This document shows positions 43,717 through 47,824 of a stretch of 64,000 bases of DNA, in pieces. This DNA comes from Catenulispora sp. EB89. GTDB lineage: Bacteria > Actinomycetota > Actinomycetes > Streptomycetales > Catenulisporaceae. The stretch is taken from positions 186,001 to 250,000 of the forward strand of contig NZ_JBGCCU010000003.1 of the NCBI RefSeq assembly GCF_041261445.1, read 5' to 3'. The notes under the pieces are model-generated. The model was not told the origin of the DNA, made no database searches, and saw only the letters and a list, made by a program, of their open reading frames with translations. Every line of letters starts with the position of its first letter. The stretch's first letter is position 1. The translations under genes were made by a program, and so were the position numbers.

Positions 43717-44136
43717 ATGTGGGACTACGAATACAGCGCCACCGCCGAGGTCACGCCGAACGCCGTCTGGACGCTCTGGGCCGACCCGCTGGGCTGGCAC
43801 GCCTGGAACGACGGCGTCGGCGAGGTCGAGCTGCACGGCCCGTTCGCCGCCGGCACCGCGTTCACGATGACGCCGCCCGGCGAGGACACGATCCACATGA
43901 CCATCACCGAAGTGGTCCCGGACCAGGCATGGATCGACGTCTGCGAGGTCCCGGGCCTGCTCATCACCACCCACCACCTGATCGAGGACCTCGGCGCCGG
44001 CCGCACGAAGGTCACCTACCGCACCGAGATCACCGGCGAGGCGGCCGACGAGCTCGGACCGGAGATCGGCCCGCAGATCTGCGCCGACTTCCCGGACGTC
44101 GTCACCAAGCTGCTGGCACTGGCGGCGAGCGCCTGA
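43717..44136 (+). CDS. SRPBCC family protein
   Basis: A 139-residue START-like protein (YSATAEVTPNAVWTLWADPL, GWHAWNDGVGEVELHGPFAAG). It resembles polyketide-cyclase/dehydrase-type proteins that bind small hydrophobic molecules. AGGGGAACACC precedes the ATG. It is coupled to the MarR gene that follows (TGATG), so the regulator may sense this protein's ligand. Confidence 0.84.
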   Translation: MWDYEYSATAEVTPNAVWTLWADPLGWHAWNDGVGEVELHGPFAAGTAFTMTPPGEDTIHMTITEVVPDQAWIDVCEVPGLLITTHHLIEDLGAGRTKVTYRTEITGEAADELGPEIGPQICADFPDVVTKLLALAASA

Positions 44137-44582
44137 TGAGCGAAGGTGCAGGCGGCCCCGGAGACCAGCCCGGCTTCCTCCTCTGGCGCGTCACCCTCCG
44201 GTGGCAGCGCGAGATCGCCGCGGTCCTGGCCCCCCTGGACCTCACGCACGTCCAGTTCGTCCTCCTCGCCTGCACCTTCTGGCTCAACGACCAGGGCCTG
44301 ACCCCCAACCAGGCCACGGTCGCCGAGCAGGCCGGCACCGACGTGAAGATGACCTCGCAGGTGATCCGCACCCTGGAAGCCAAGGGCCTGGTCACCCGCG
44401 AGGTCGACCCCGCCGACACCCGCGCGCGCCGACTGCGCGTCACGGCCGCCGGCGCCGACCTCGCACCGCGCGCCATGGCGGCGGTGGAGGCGGCCGACGC
44501 AGCGTTCTTCGATCCCGTCGCGCGTCCGGACGCCGTCAGCATGCTGAGCAAGCTGGCGCGCTTCGGGCACTCCGACCGATAG
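44136..44582 (+). CDS. MarR-family transcriptional regulator
   Basis: A 148-residue winged-helix protein (LTHVQFVLLACTFWLNDQGL, recognition region GTDVKMTSQVIRTLEAKGLV, wing VDPADTRARRLRVT). It probably represses its own SRPBCC operon. Its start overlaps the SRPBCC stop by one base. Its stop directly abuts a leftward TetR pseudogene. Confidence 0.88.
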   Translation: MSEGAGGPGDQPGFLLWRVTLRWQREIAAVLAPLDLTHVQFVLLACTFWLNDQGLTPNQATVAEQAGTDVKMTSQVIRTLEAKGLVTREVDPADTRARRLRVTAAGADLAPRAMAAVEAADAAFFDPVARPDAVSMLSKLARFGHSDR

Positions 44583-44835
44583 CTCAGCCCACTGCGGCGG
44601 GAGCCTCGGCGGACGTCTCGGCCGACGTCTCGGCAGGCGTACCCGCAGAATCCCCCGCTGCTGCTCCCGGTCCGCGTCGTCCATCACCCGCATGATGTCC
44701 GGGCTGATGAACTCCCAGAACGCGGCCATGTGCACGATCAGCCTCGTTCGTGAACTAGTGGTAGACCTGCGCCTTGTTGGACTGTGCGCTCGCAGCGATG
44801 CGGTCCACCCTGGTGGCTTCAGCGTCGCGCTGCAT
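44583..44835 (-). pseudogene. TetR-family repressor, dead (internal deletion, nonsense codon, frameshift)
   Basis: Reading left from ATG 44,835 gives MQRDAEAT joined straight to RVDRIAASAQSNKAQVYH. Intact TetR proteins of this type have about 20 residues of helix 1 between these two parts. The next codon, which should be the Tyr of the invariant YHYF motif, is TAG. Past it the remaining text is split between frames: VHMAAFWEFISPDIMRVMDD in one, and a tail ending ETSAETSAEAPAAVG plus stop in another. The gene thus has three separate lesions. An operator-like palindrome lies 22 bases upstream of the ATG. Confidence 0.75.
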
Positions 44836-44856
44836 GAACGCAACCTAACGCACCAT

Positions 44857-44874
44857 CAACTAACTATTTGGTTG
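44857..44874. promoter_or_regulatory. TetR-type operator candidate (copy 1)
   Basis: On the lower strand the sequence is CAACCAAATAGTTAGTTG, an imperfect palindrome with seven of nine pairs matching. It covers the ABC-F stop codon and sits just upstream of the TetR pseudogene's start, where an autorepressor would bind. A nearly identical copy is present at 46,667-46,684. Confidence 0.6.
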
Positions 44875-46486
44875 AATTGAGCACCCCGGCCCGCAGCTCG
44901 ATCCTCCGGTCGACCCCGATCTCCTCCAGGAACCGCTCGTCGTGGCTGACCACGACGAAGGCCCCCTGGTAGGCGTTCAGCGCGTTCTCCAACTGGCCAA
45001 CGCTGACCAGGTCGAGGTTGTTCGTCGGCTCGTCCAGCAGCAACAGGTGCGGCGCCGGCTCCGCGTACAGCACGCACGCCAACGTCGCGCGCAGCCGCTC
45101 GCCGCCGGACAGCACACGCACCGGCAGGTGGATGCGCGCGCCGCGGAACAGGAACCGTGCCAGGACGTTCAGCCGCTGGTTGTCGGGCAGCGACGGCGCG
45201 AACGCCGCGAAGTTCTCGGCTACCGTCTTGTCGTCGTCCAGCAGGTCCAGCCGCTGGGACAGGTACGCCACGCGGCCGTCGGCACGGCGGATCGTCCCGC
45301 CGTCCGGCTCCAGATCACCGTGGATCAGCCGCATCAAGGTCGACTTGCCCGCGCCGTTCCCGCCGGACAGCGCGATGCGCTCCGGCCCGCGGATCGCCAG
45401 GTCGACGCCGTCCCCGGCGAAGATCTCGGTCTCGCCGAGCCGCTTGCGCAGCTGCTCCCCCACGAACAACGTGCGCCCCGCGGGCACCTGCGTGTCGGGC
45501 AGCTCCAGCGCGATGCCCTGGTCGGCGCGCACGGCCTTGGCCGCCTGGTCGGCGCGCTCCTTCGCCTCGGTGACCCGTGAGGCGTGCATCGTCTGCGCGC
45601 TGCCGGCGGCCTTCTCCGCGCTGCGCTTCATGTTCCCGGCGAAGAGCTTCGGCAGGCCGGCGTTCTTGAGGTTCTTCGCCGCGGTGCCGGCGCGCCGGTC
45701 GGCCCGCTCGCGCGCCTGCTGCATCTCGCGCTTCTCGCGCTTGAGTTCCTGCTCGGCGTTGCGCAGGTTCCGTTCGGCCGATTCGCGCTCGGCGGCGACG
45801 GCCTCCTCGTAGGCGCTGTAGTTCCCGCCGTAGAACCGGATCTCGCCACCTTCGAGCTCTGCGATGCGGTCCATCCGGTCCAGCAGCTCGCGGTCGTGGC
45901 TGACCACCAGCACGCAGCCGCGCCAGCCGTCCAGGACGTCGTAGAGCTTGTGCCGCGCGGCGACGTCCAGGTTGTTCGTCGGCTCGTCGAGCAGCAGCAC
46001 GTCAGGAGTCTGAATCAGCAGCGCGGCGAGCCCGAGCGAGACCACCTGGCCGCCGCTGAGCGCACCGAGCGGTTCGCGCAGCGAGACGTGCCCGAGGCCG
46101 AGCCGGTCCAGCTCCGCCCGCGCGCGCTCCTCGACGTCCCAGGCGTCGCCGATGGTGGTGAAGTGCCGCTCGTCGGTGTCGCCGGACTCGATGGCGTCCA
46201 GCGCCGCGATCACCTCCGCGATGCCGATCACCTCGGCGACCGTGCGGCCGGCGGTCAGCGGCAGGTCCTGCGGCAGGTAGCCGAGGACGCCCTCGACACT
46301 GATCGAGCCGGCGGTCGGCGTCAGCGCGCCGCTGATCAGCCGGAGCAGGGTGGACTTGCCGGCTCCGTTCGGGGCGACCAGGCCGACGCACCCGGCCTCG
46401 ACGCTAAAGCTGAGGTCGTGGAAGACGGGGGTGTCGTCCGGCCAGGTGAAGGACAGCCCGGAGGCGACAACAGGGGATTGAGACAT
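44864..46486 (-). CDS. ABC-F family ATPase (ribosome-protection type)
   Basis: A 540-residue protein with two ABC domains and no membrane segments. The first has NGAGKST (40-46), LSGGQ and [12 protein letters not shown]; the second has [17 protein letters not shown] and [13 protein letters not shown] charged linker (about 235-315, [19 protein letters not shown]) joins them. ABC-F proteins act on the ribosomal E site, and many displace macrolides, lincosamides or pleuromutilins. Which drug, if any, cannot be told. A leader peptide and hairpin precede it, and operator-like palindromes flank it. Confidence 0.88.
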
Positions 46487-46532
46487 GACGGTGCCCTTGA
46501 AGGAGTGAAGTGGGATGGAACGACAAAGGGAA

Positions 46533-46566
46533 CCGAGCCGCGGATCACAGATCAGAACGCGCTCGG
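46533..46566 (-). promoter_or_regulatory. Candidate attenuator hairpin in the ABC-F leader
   Basis: In the leader RNA, CCGAGC plus GCG pair with CGC plus GCTCGG, with one bulged base and a 15-base loop. The stem is followed by TTCCCTTTG. It lies between the leader peptide and the ABC-F start, the position expected for ribosome-mediated attenuation. Stability was not computed. Confidence 0.45.
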
Positions 46567-46579
46567 GAACCCGGCCATC

Positions 46580-46609
46580 TCAGTGCGAGATGTCGTCGTC
46601 GCCCAACAT
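46580..46609 (-). CDS. Nine-residue leader peptide MLGDDDISH upstream of ABC-F gene
   Basis: ATG at 46,607-46,609 is preceded by a strong AAGGAG site (46,616-46,621) and the frame ends after nine codons with TGA. It begins 121 bases before the ABC-F start codon. A short, well-initiated peptide followed by a hairpin is the usual layout for antibiotic-induced ABC-F genes, in which a stalled ribosome reshapes the leader RNA. The peptide's function is inferred from this layout. Confidence 0.6.
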   Translation of the reverse strand: MLGDDDISH

Positions 46610-46666
46610 GTCGAACTCCTTGTTTCGGGATTTCCAGCACCGTAACACGAGCCGTGCGGACAAAGT

Positions 46667-46684
46667 AACTGACTATTTGGTTGA
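46667..46684. promoter_or_regulatory. TetR-type operator candidate (copy 2)
   Basis: AACTGACTATTTGGTTGA matches AACTAACTATTTGGTTGA at 44,858-44,875 at 17 of 18 positions. This copy lies about 46 bases upstream of the leader-peptide ribosome site, where it could cover the ABC-F promoter. Two such sites would let one repressor control itself and the ABC-F gene. Confidence 0.6.
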
Positions 46685-46800
46685 CAGCGCCGCCTCAAAG
46701 AACCCAGCTCGCACCTGTACCGGATCTTCCCGAAGCCCTCTAGCGAACTGCTTCAGGTCGGTGACGGCAGTGGAGTCGCCGTAGAGCTTGTAGGCGGCGC
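46673..46800 (-). pseudogene. C-terminal gene fragment, unidentified
   Basis: The leftward frame gives a protein-like end, YKLYGDSTAVTDLKQFARGL followed by REDPVQVRAGFFEAALSTK and TAG. Upstream of about 46,800 the frame loses its protein-like character, and no start codon is convincing. I cannot name the family. It may be the tail of a deleted gene, perhaps a second casualty of the rearrangement that killed the TetR gene. Confidence 0.3.
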
Positions 46801-46963
46801 AGGGTCGGGACGGCGAACCGGTCGGCGGGCCGAGCTCGGACCCCCTGTGATGGCTTCTCCGACTGGGAGTCAGATGACCGATGTCACCGCCTGTGCGGCC
46901 GGGTGACAGTGATTCCGCAGCACAACACCCAGCCTGAAACCCAGTCCTCGAAAGGGATCTGCC

Positions 46964-47824
46964 ATGGTCACTCTCCGCACCCGCCGCAAGCGGCGGTTCG
47001 CCGCCGCCTCGACCGCGGTGGTCGGCGCCGCCGCGGCGCTCGGCGCGTTCGCGCTCGCCGGCACCGCCGACGCCGCTTCCAGCCGTTCCGCCTCGGCCGA
47101 CCGCGACCACGGTCCGAAGCCGACGGTCGTGTTGGAGCACGGTGCGTTCGCGGACGCCTCCAGCTGGGACGGCGTCATCAAGGACCTCCGCCACGACGGC
47201 TACCCGGTGGTCGCGGCGGCGAACCCGCTGCGCAGCCCCGCCTCCGACGCCGCTTCCCTGCGCGCCCTCATCGAGCACCTCAAAGGCCCGGTCATCCTGG
47301 TCGGCCACTCCTACGGCGGCTCGGTCATCAGCGAAGCCGCAGCCGGCGAAACCAACGTCAAAGCCCTCGTCTACGTCGCCGCGTTCCTGCCCGCCGTCGG
47401 CGAAAGCGCCCTGCAACTGACCAACCTCTACCCCGGCTCCACCCTGCCCGCCGCGCTCGACCCGGTCACCGTCACCAACCCCGACGGCAGCACCAGCACC
47501 GACCTGTACATCCAGCAAGACAAGTTCCGCCACCAATTCGCCGCCGACGTCCCCGCCGACCAGGCCGCGCTCATGGCCGAAACCCAGCGCCCCATCGCCC
47601 AGGCCGCGTTGGAGGAAAAGGCCACCGTCGCCGCCTGGAAGACCATCCCCAGCTGGGACATCGTCACCACCCAAGACCTCAACATCCCGCCGGCCGCGCA
47701 GGAATTCATGGCCAAGCGCGCCAACGCACACGTCACCGAAGTCGCCGCCTCGCACTCCGTCGCGGTCTCCCACCCCGACCTCGTGACGTCGGTCATCGAG
47801 TGCGCCGCCCGCGCGACCCGCTGA
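46964..47824 (+). CDS. Secreted alpha/beta hydrolase
   Basis: A 286-residue esterase-like protein. A basic N-terminus (RTRRKRRFAAAS) and hydrophobic stretch to about residue 38 form a signal peptide, perhaps Tat-type. The nucleophile is Ser116 in VGHSYGGS, and the late His lies in VAASHSVAVSHPD. The pattern matches EstC/salicylate-esterase-like hydrolases of small esters. The substrate is unknown. AAAGGGATC precedes the ATG. Confidence 0.85.
   Translation: MVTLRTRRKRRFAAASTAVVGAAAALGAFALAGTADAASSRSASADRDHGPKPTVVLEHGAFADASSWDGVIKDLRHDGYPVVAAANPLRSPASDAASLRALIEHLKGPVILVGHSYGGSVISEAAAGETNVKALVYVAAFLPAVGESALQLTNLYPGSTLPAALDPVTVTNPDGSTSTDLYIQQDKFRHQFAADVPADQAALMAETQRPIAQAALEEKATVAAWKTIPSWDIVTTQDLNIPPAAQEFMAKRANAHVTEVAASHSVAVSHPDLVTSVIECAARATR

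Follow-up and report, generated by a model that had tools for sequence, protein, structure and literature searches.

Loss of a TetR repressor gene beside a TiaA-like ABC-F gene in Catenulispora, with two presumed operators left in place

The window analysed here is a stretch of 64,000 nucleotides from Catenulispora sp. EB89, whose genome comprises 11,900,167 bases. Within it lie an ABC-F gene with a short leader uORF, the remains of a tetR gene, and two closely similar sites, one before each gene. The features are listed below in window coordinates.

44864-46486, minus strand: TiaA-like ABC-F gene encoding a ribosomal-protection-type ATPase of 540 aa, identified by profiles
44583-44835, minus strand: tetR pseudogene, identified by alignment to three intact orthologues
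about 44811-44835, 44751-44810 and 44643-44742, minus strand: surviving pieces of the tetR remnant
44755-44757, minus strand: in-frame TAG in the recognition-helix region of the remnant
44856-44875, plus strand: site 1, a palindrome preceding the dead tetR and overlapping the final ABC-F codons, the stop included
46665-46684, plus strand: site 2, an imperfect palindrome that lies upstream of the -10 region of the ABC-F gene
46639-46644, minus strand: TACGGT, the likely -10 element of a putative ABC-F promoter
46580-46609, minus strand: leader uORF MLGDDDISH, tiaAL-like
46533-46566, minus strand: leader hairpin, a candidate attenuator stem
44136-44582: MarR-family gene, convergent with the tetR remnant

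Along the minus strand the order is site 2, the -10-like TACGGT, the uORF, the hairpin, the ABC-F gene, site 1 and the tetR remnant. An Rfam scan of 44500-47000 gave no match at E values up to 1. An open stretch on the minus strand (46676-46798, PCAAYKLYGDSTAVTDLKQF...) ends within site 2 and has no Pfam match at 0.1. Upstream of site 2 the window genome is scarcely alignable to that of its nearest relative, C. rubra, which suggests a rearrangement there.

The ABC-F protein scores 391.3 bits against NCBIfam NF000355 (cut-off 380) and matches ABC_tran (PF00005) in two stretches, giving two ABC domains together with the family profile. Resistance to ribosome-targeting antibiotics is its putative function. 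No solved structure was found at 1e-60, a very strict threshold. The C. rubra protein is 96% identical to that of the window, and dN/dS between the two genes is 0.14, indicating purifying selection in a pair that has no repressor. TiaA (SCO0636) of Streptomyces coelicolor, which has the leader tiaAL, is likewise a ribosomal-protection-type ABC-F, and its leader peptide MVGDDDISG compares with MLGDDDISH in the window (PMC12421871). The likeness to TiaA was assessed through a Streptomyces tendae gene that is 70% identical to the window's and has the same leader, MVGDDDISG, as tiaAL. Unlike the TiaA locus of S. coelicolor, the window locus appears to have had an additional TetR layer, since lost.

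The tetR remnant begins at an ATG (44833-44835, minus strand) and is identical to the intact sister tetR (locus L023) at 241 of 278 aligned columns, non-coding flanks counted. A profile of this TetR type matches a piece of it with an E value of 3.9e-7. Codons ~9-29 are gone through a 60-bp in-frame deletion, and a second deletion, of about 281 bp and not a multiple of three, has removed the middle of the gene. The TAG occupies the position of the second Tyr of the YHYF motif, as that motif stands in the three intact copies, and the 3ʹ end is altered, with loss of frame. The first-pass annotation had described a deletion, this stop and a lost frame; all are present, but there are two large deletions and not one. 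With no functional tetR reading frame left, the window copy is, judged by its sequence, a pseudogene. Elsewhere in the genome there is no TetR of the 67-79% identity class, and the best intact match is 41% identical. The C. rubra tetR is even more deleted, with about 43 bp kept and other breakpoints. No large deletion is common to the two remnants and the TAG occurs only in the window strain, which argues that the lesions arose independently; an earlier hit common to both genes is possible. We rejected assembly error as the source of the broken gene on account of the several independent lesions and of the separate deletions in C. rubra.

The genus sample comprised 10 Catenulispora genomes: that of the window (G000), one that we take to be C. 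acidiphila (G001), C. pinisilvae (G002), C. pinistramenti (G003), C. rubra (G004), and G005 to G009. At E <= 1e-100, ABC-F genes were found in nine of them, in 10 copies; the tenth genome, G007 (77% complete), had no copy at that threshold. In C. acidiphila, G008 and G009 the ABC-F gene is followed immediately, in the same orientation, by an intact TetR gene of 191-192 aa, an arrangement that the first-pass annotation had suggested looking for in relatives. All three proteins carry both PF00440 (TetR_N) and the TetR_C_21 repressor domain (PF17926). C. pinisilvae, C. pinistramenti and the more distant copies in G005 and G006 (81% complete), which have other genomic surroundings, show neither this TetR nor the sites at their ABC-F genes. 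In a tree of 21 ABC-F proteins, none of them a named TiaA, the five loci at which TetR or a remnant of it is present fall into a single clade (98/96), whose internal branching order the tree leaves open. This clade is sister to C. pinisilvae and C. pinistramenti, and genes from Actinomadura lie outside. In three Actinomadura species (L084, L085, L086) the ABC-F protein is 84% identical to that of the window, and these genes are nearer to it in the tree than are the copies from Catenulispora MAGs. Horizontal transfer is a possible source of this similarity.

How widespread is the TetR? In 293 genomes sampled from the order, a match at 1e-30 was found in 22, and proteins of at least 65% identity only in C. 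acidiphila, G008 and G009, each of which has the ABC-F neighbour and one paralogue at that level. For other genera we used 74 actinobacterial loci, namely the best 80 of 279 relatives minus six that repeat the genus loci; in three of the 74 there was under 1 kb of downstream sequence. Matches to the subfamily TetR profile at most 1 kb from the ABC-F gene were found in 2 of the 74 (L103, L151) among composition-filtered genes and in 3 (L101, L103, L151) with the filter off, although TetRs of other types near these loci may go unseen because the subfamily profile misses them. The best matches of these three to the intact TetRs cover 16-98 residues at 27-44% identity. None of the 74 has the palindrome near the ABC-F ends at up to 3 mismatches. 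Since C. pinisilvae, C. pinistramenti and the 74 other loci have neither the palindrome nor a close relative of the TetR, the TetR seems to be a layer specific to one lineage, acquired within Catenulispora and lost again in the branch that leads to the window strain and C. rubra. One gain and one later loss in that branch would be the simplest account, for which five loci provide the basis. It is possible that the TetR is older and that C. pinisilvae and C. pinistramenti have lost it. The first-pass annotation had counted relatives lacking any TetR here as evidence against a lost repressor; C. pinisilvae and C. pinistramenti do lack this TetR, but they branch outside the TetR-bearing clade.

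Site 1 (AACTAACTATTTGGTTGA, 44858-44875) and site 2 (AACTGACTATTTGGTTGA, 46667-46684) are identical at 17 of 18 positions, as the first-pass annotation had reported. At up to 3 mismatches the 18-mer has 2 matches in the window, compared with 0.00 expected from 100 shuffles, and the whole genome contains the same two and no others (reversed control, 0). As a 20-base sequence (44856-44875), site 1 fits the palindrome TCAACYAAN4TTRGTTGA at 16 of 16 positions, and site 2 misses 3 of the 16. Searched for on its own at 3 mismatches, this palindrome occurs at 10 places in the window genome compared with 8 for a control pattern, and across the genus at 1-11 places per genome compared with 0-8, which is background. 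Hence, it is not symmetry that speaks for site 2 but its agreement with site 1 at 17/18 positions, together with its conservation. Elsewhere in the C. rubra genome the palindrome occurs with 1 mismatch at C57:78221.

The intact loci show where the sites belong. The palindrome precedes tetR in all three, with 0-1 mismatches, and lies either between the ABC-F gene and tetR or over the ABC-F end. Site 2 is the same in the window, G008 and G009, and has one base changed in C. rubra. In C. acidiphila the promoter site is strongly diverged, with 5 mismatches to the 18-mer, and is absent from the list of 3-mismatch palindromes. The expectation that the palindrome would stand at both promoters thus holds for tetR in 3/3 intact loci and for the ABC-F gene in 2/3, C. 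acidiphila being the exception. A third palindrome, with 1 mismatch, lies upstream of site 2 at 42 bp in G009 and 45 bp in G008. This arrangement is that of a local autoregulatory TetR/AcrR protein of the TetR_C_21 type, with TetR_N and TetR_C_21 in the orthologues and the palindrome at their own start. It departs from such local repressors in that the window copy is a pseudogene and that an ABC-F translation factor is the presumed target. Sites 1 and 2 are presumed to be repressor-binding sites. The idea that a single repressor controlled both itself and the ABC-F gene gains support from the palindromes at the intact loci.

Are the sites still in use? Between G008 and G009, both with intact tetR, 1 of 60 site positions has changed compared with 41 of 320 fourfold sites (p = 0.005); the sites are constrained in this pair. 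For the window strain and C. rubra, both with dead tetR, the figures are 3 of 40 and 38 of 316 (p = 0.29), and the drift in the two pairs (3/40 and 1/60) does not differ significantly (p = 0.30). Such counts tend to be low, the sites having been chosen for their similarity. Both sites also overlap other sequence, site 1 the ABC-F stop codon and site 2 a promoter element. Since drift in the dead pair is indistinguishable from that at synonymous sites, retention of the operators can be attributed to recency, with no need for selection. The earlier statement that the ABC-F gene had kept both operators is therefore accurate as to their presence, but their retention does not show that they continue to be used.

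The leader is far more widely distributed than the TetR. The uORF is recognisable in all 10 genus loci, being shortened to MLSDDITH in C. pinisilvae and C. pinistramenti, and a pattern search found it in 63 of the 74 loci from other actinobacteria. That of the window is of the MxGDDDISG type, with His in place of Gly as the last residue. In nine aligned leaders most pairs of the hairpin are kept, and the two outer pairs are broken in C. pinisilvae and C. pinistramenti. Two-sided (compensatory) changes are absent from these nine, so covariation adds no support to the hairpin, which is conserved in sequence. Of three leader segments compared with shuffles, only that of 64 nt folds better (z = -2.40); those of 108 and 138 nt do not (z = 0.02 and -0.85). 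For tiaAL of S. coelicolor, toeprinting shows stalling in the presence of lincosamides, pleuromutilins and streptogramins A (PMC12421871). The S. coelicolor tiaA promoter is constitutive in reporters, and regulation was seen only in the translational reporter, the transcriptional one being constitutive (PMC12421871). The attenuation step may therefore not be transcriptional. On present sequence evidence the uORF is older than the TetR layer. Because it is so widespread and so like tiaAL, the ancestral layer was most probably leader control, and the TetR a short-lived addition.

From the decay of tetR, its intact orthologues, the palindromes and the leader, all of them present in the sequences themselves, we infer repression, de-repression, attenuation at this locus, and the number and order of events. 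We propose that a TiaA-type ABC-F gene that already had its leader gained a local autoregulatory TetR within Catenulispora. The TetR would have bound the 20-bp palindrome of site 1 at its own promoter and repressed itself, and would have bound the weaker copy, site 2, over or next to the -35 region, blocking the ABC-F promoter; in G008 and G009 the third site would add to this action. Deletions, different ones in the window strain and in C. rubra, would then have destroyed the repressor gene in the branch to which both belong. Its loss would have freed the ABC-F promoter, leaving expression to be set by the promoter and uORF-based attenuation, as in relatives without the TetR. This present state is predicted because every one of the ten genus loci has a recognisable uORF, and the ABC-F gene now probably relies on the older ribosome-stalling leader alone. 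We consider the whole account, from gain of the TetR and dual-site repression to its loss and the leader control that remains, to be probable. Several points count against it: C. acidiphila has an intact TetR and no recognisable site 2; site 2 is asymmetric, with a number of mismatches that is background for the palindrome; the order of gain and loss is read from five loci; the hairpin gains nothing from covariation, nor do the longer leader segments from folding; the transcriptional reporter of tiaA was constitutive; and the drift of the sites is not significantly different in the dead and the intact pair. The facts given in the first-pass annotation were right, and so, as far as the sequences tell, was its history.

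What else could site 2 be? It could chiefly be a promoter element, either a WblC/WhiB7-type AT-rich box or -35 context, in which case site 1 alone would have been an operator and tetR would have regulated only itself. In promoters activated by WblC/WhiB7 a poor -35 and a TANNNT -10 are preceded by an AT-rich element, the motif being GAAAWY at 3 bp before the -35 (PMC7157823), with 16-19 bp to TANNNT in the form applied here. Compared by eye, the window has a weak match (AAATAGT), and C. acidiphila, C. pinisilvae and C. pinistramenti have fair ones. In an alignment of ten loci anchored on (G/A)TGTTA, a motif that served as the anchor and is not itself a result, the sequence that follows is TTACGG or TTACGT in 8/10, TTACCG in C. 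rubra and TTAGCG in G006b. The AT-rich stretch under site 2 recurs, as AATAAT, AATAAA or AAAAAT and with a spacing to the -10 that is the same to within 1 bp, in C. acidiphila and in the TetR-less C. pinisilvae, C. pinistramenti and G006b. The divergence of the promoter site in C. acidiphila and the background frequency of 3-mismatch palindromes fit this reading too. However, the match of site 2 to site 1 at 17/18 is seen only in the TetR clade, the promoters of C. pinisilvae and C. pinistramenti do not have the TCAACC and GTTAC flanks, and G008 and G009 have the clear third palindrome nearby. Hence, we regard a purely promoter-related role as rather unlikely.

It is also unlikely, in our judgement, that another TetR has captured the orphan operators and keeps the ABC-F gene repressed. 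The candidate, on contig C26 of the window genome (C26:146298-146855; L080 3290-3904), is of the same subfamily and 41% identical, one of five TetR_C_21 proteins in that genome. Residual cross-repression by this protein is possible because its recognition helix is nearly the same (SNKAQIYRYF compared with SNKAQIYHYF) and two sites upstream of its start share the half-site TTAGTTGA. Site 2 of the window is unchanged relative to G008 and G009, and C. rubra, which has no TetR match at 1e-30, differs from the window at 2 positions of site 1 and at 1 position of site 2, as cross-capture would lead one to expect. On the other hand, the other half of the C26 protein's own operator is different (TTTCCTAA), C. 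pinistramenti, which has the same homologue, lacks sites of this kind at the ABC-F gene, C. rubra has candidates too (three TetR_C_21 proteins), and no excess conservation of the sites is detectable between the window strain and C. rubra. Near the start of the C26 gene TTTCCTAANNNNTTAGTTGA occurs twice, in inverted orientation and 46 bp apart. A homologue with sites also occurs in C. pinistramenti and, in modified form, in G008. A combined version, in which site 2 was built on the older AT-rich promoter element, placing the repressor over an activator site, and the orphan operators are perhaps read by the C26 protein, strikes us as doubtful. That the 18-mers recur by chance or without any connection, and that the TetR regulated nothing here, is highly improbable; we found nothing in favour of this reading, and we rejected chance similarity on the basis of the shuffles, the presence of only two matches in the genome, and the conservation of the sites at the same two places in sister species.

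What is the significance of a repressor lost in this way? In itself, the case is one of ordinary regulator decay over a conserved leader, and it is useful mainly for comparison of the sister species. Together they form a natural experiment within one genus, in which the same leader uORF is combined with an ABC-F gene that has no such TetR, an intact one or a dead one. The sister species could reveal how much a transcriptional repressor contributes where ABC-F genes are already under ribosome-mediated attenuation. Among the matches listed, no title or opening of an abstract describes TetR control of an ABC-F gene or of tiaA, and the terms "TetR family" and "repressor" are absent from the main text of PMC12421871.

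Other TetR genes occur in these genomes. The paralogues in C. acidiphila, G008 and G009 (L077 4890-5468, L078 4834-5409 and L079 4719-5312) are 67-69% identical, each begin at a copy of the palindrome with 2 mismatches (3/3 genomes), and lie, by eye, near an alpha/beta-hydrolase-like gene. Catenulispora ABC-F genes may be repeatedly acquiring TetR neighbours. Upstream of the ABC-F gene of C. pinisilvae is a TetR-like gene with TetR_C_14 (L082 1712-2422), distinct from the repressor considered here, and a TetR-like gene also lies upstream in C. pinistramenti (L083 2896-3756). The MAG G005 has a gene with TetR_C_13/TetR_C_6 (L028 4993-5604, minus strand) some 300 bp upstream of its ABC-F gene and in the opposite orientation.
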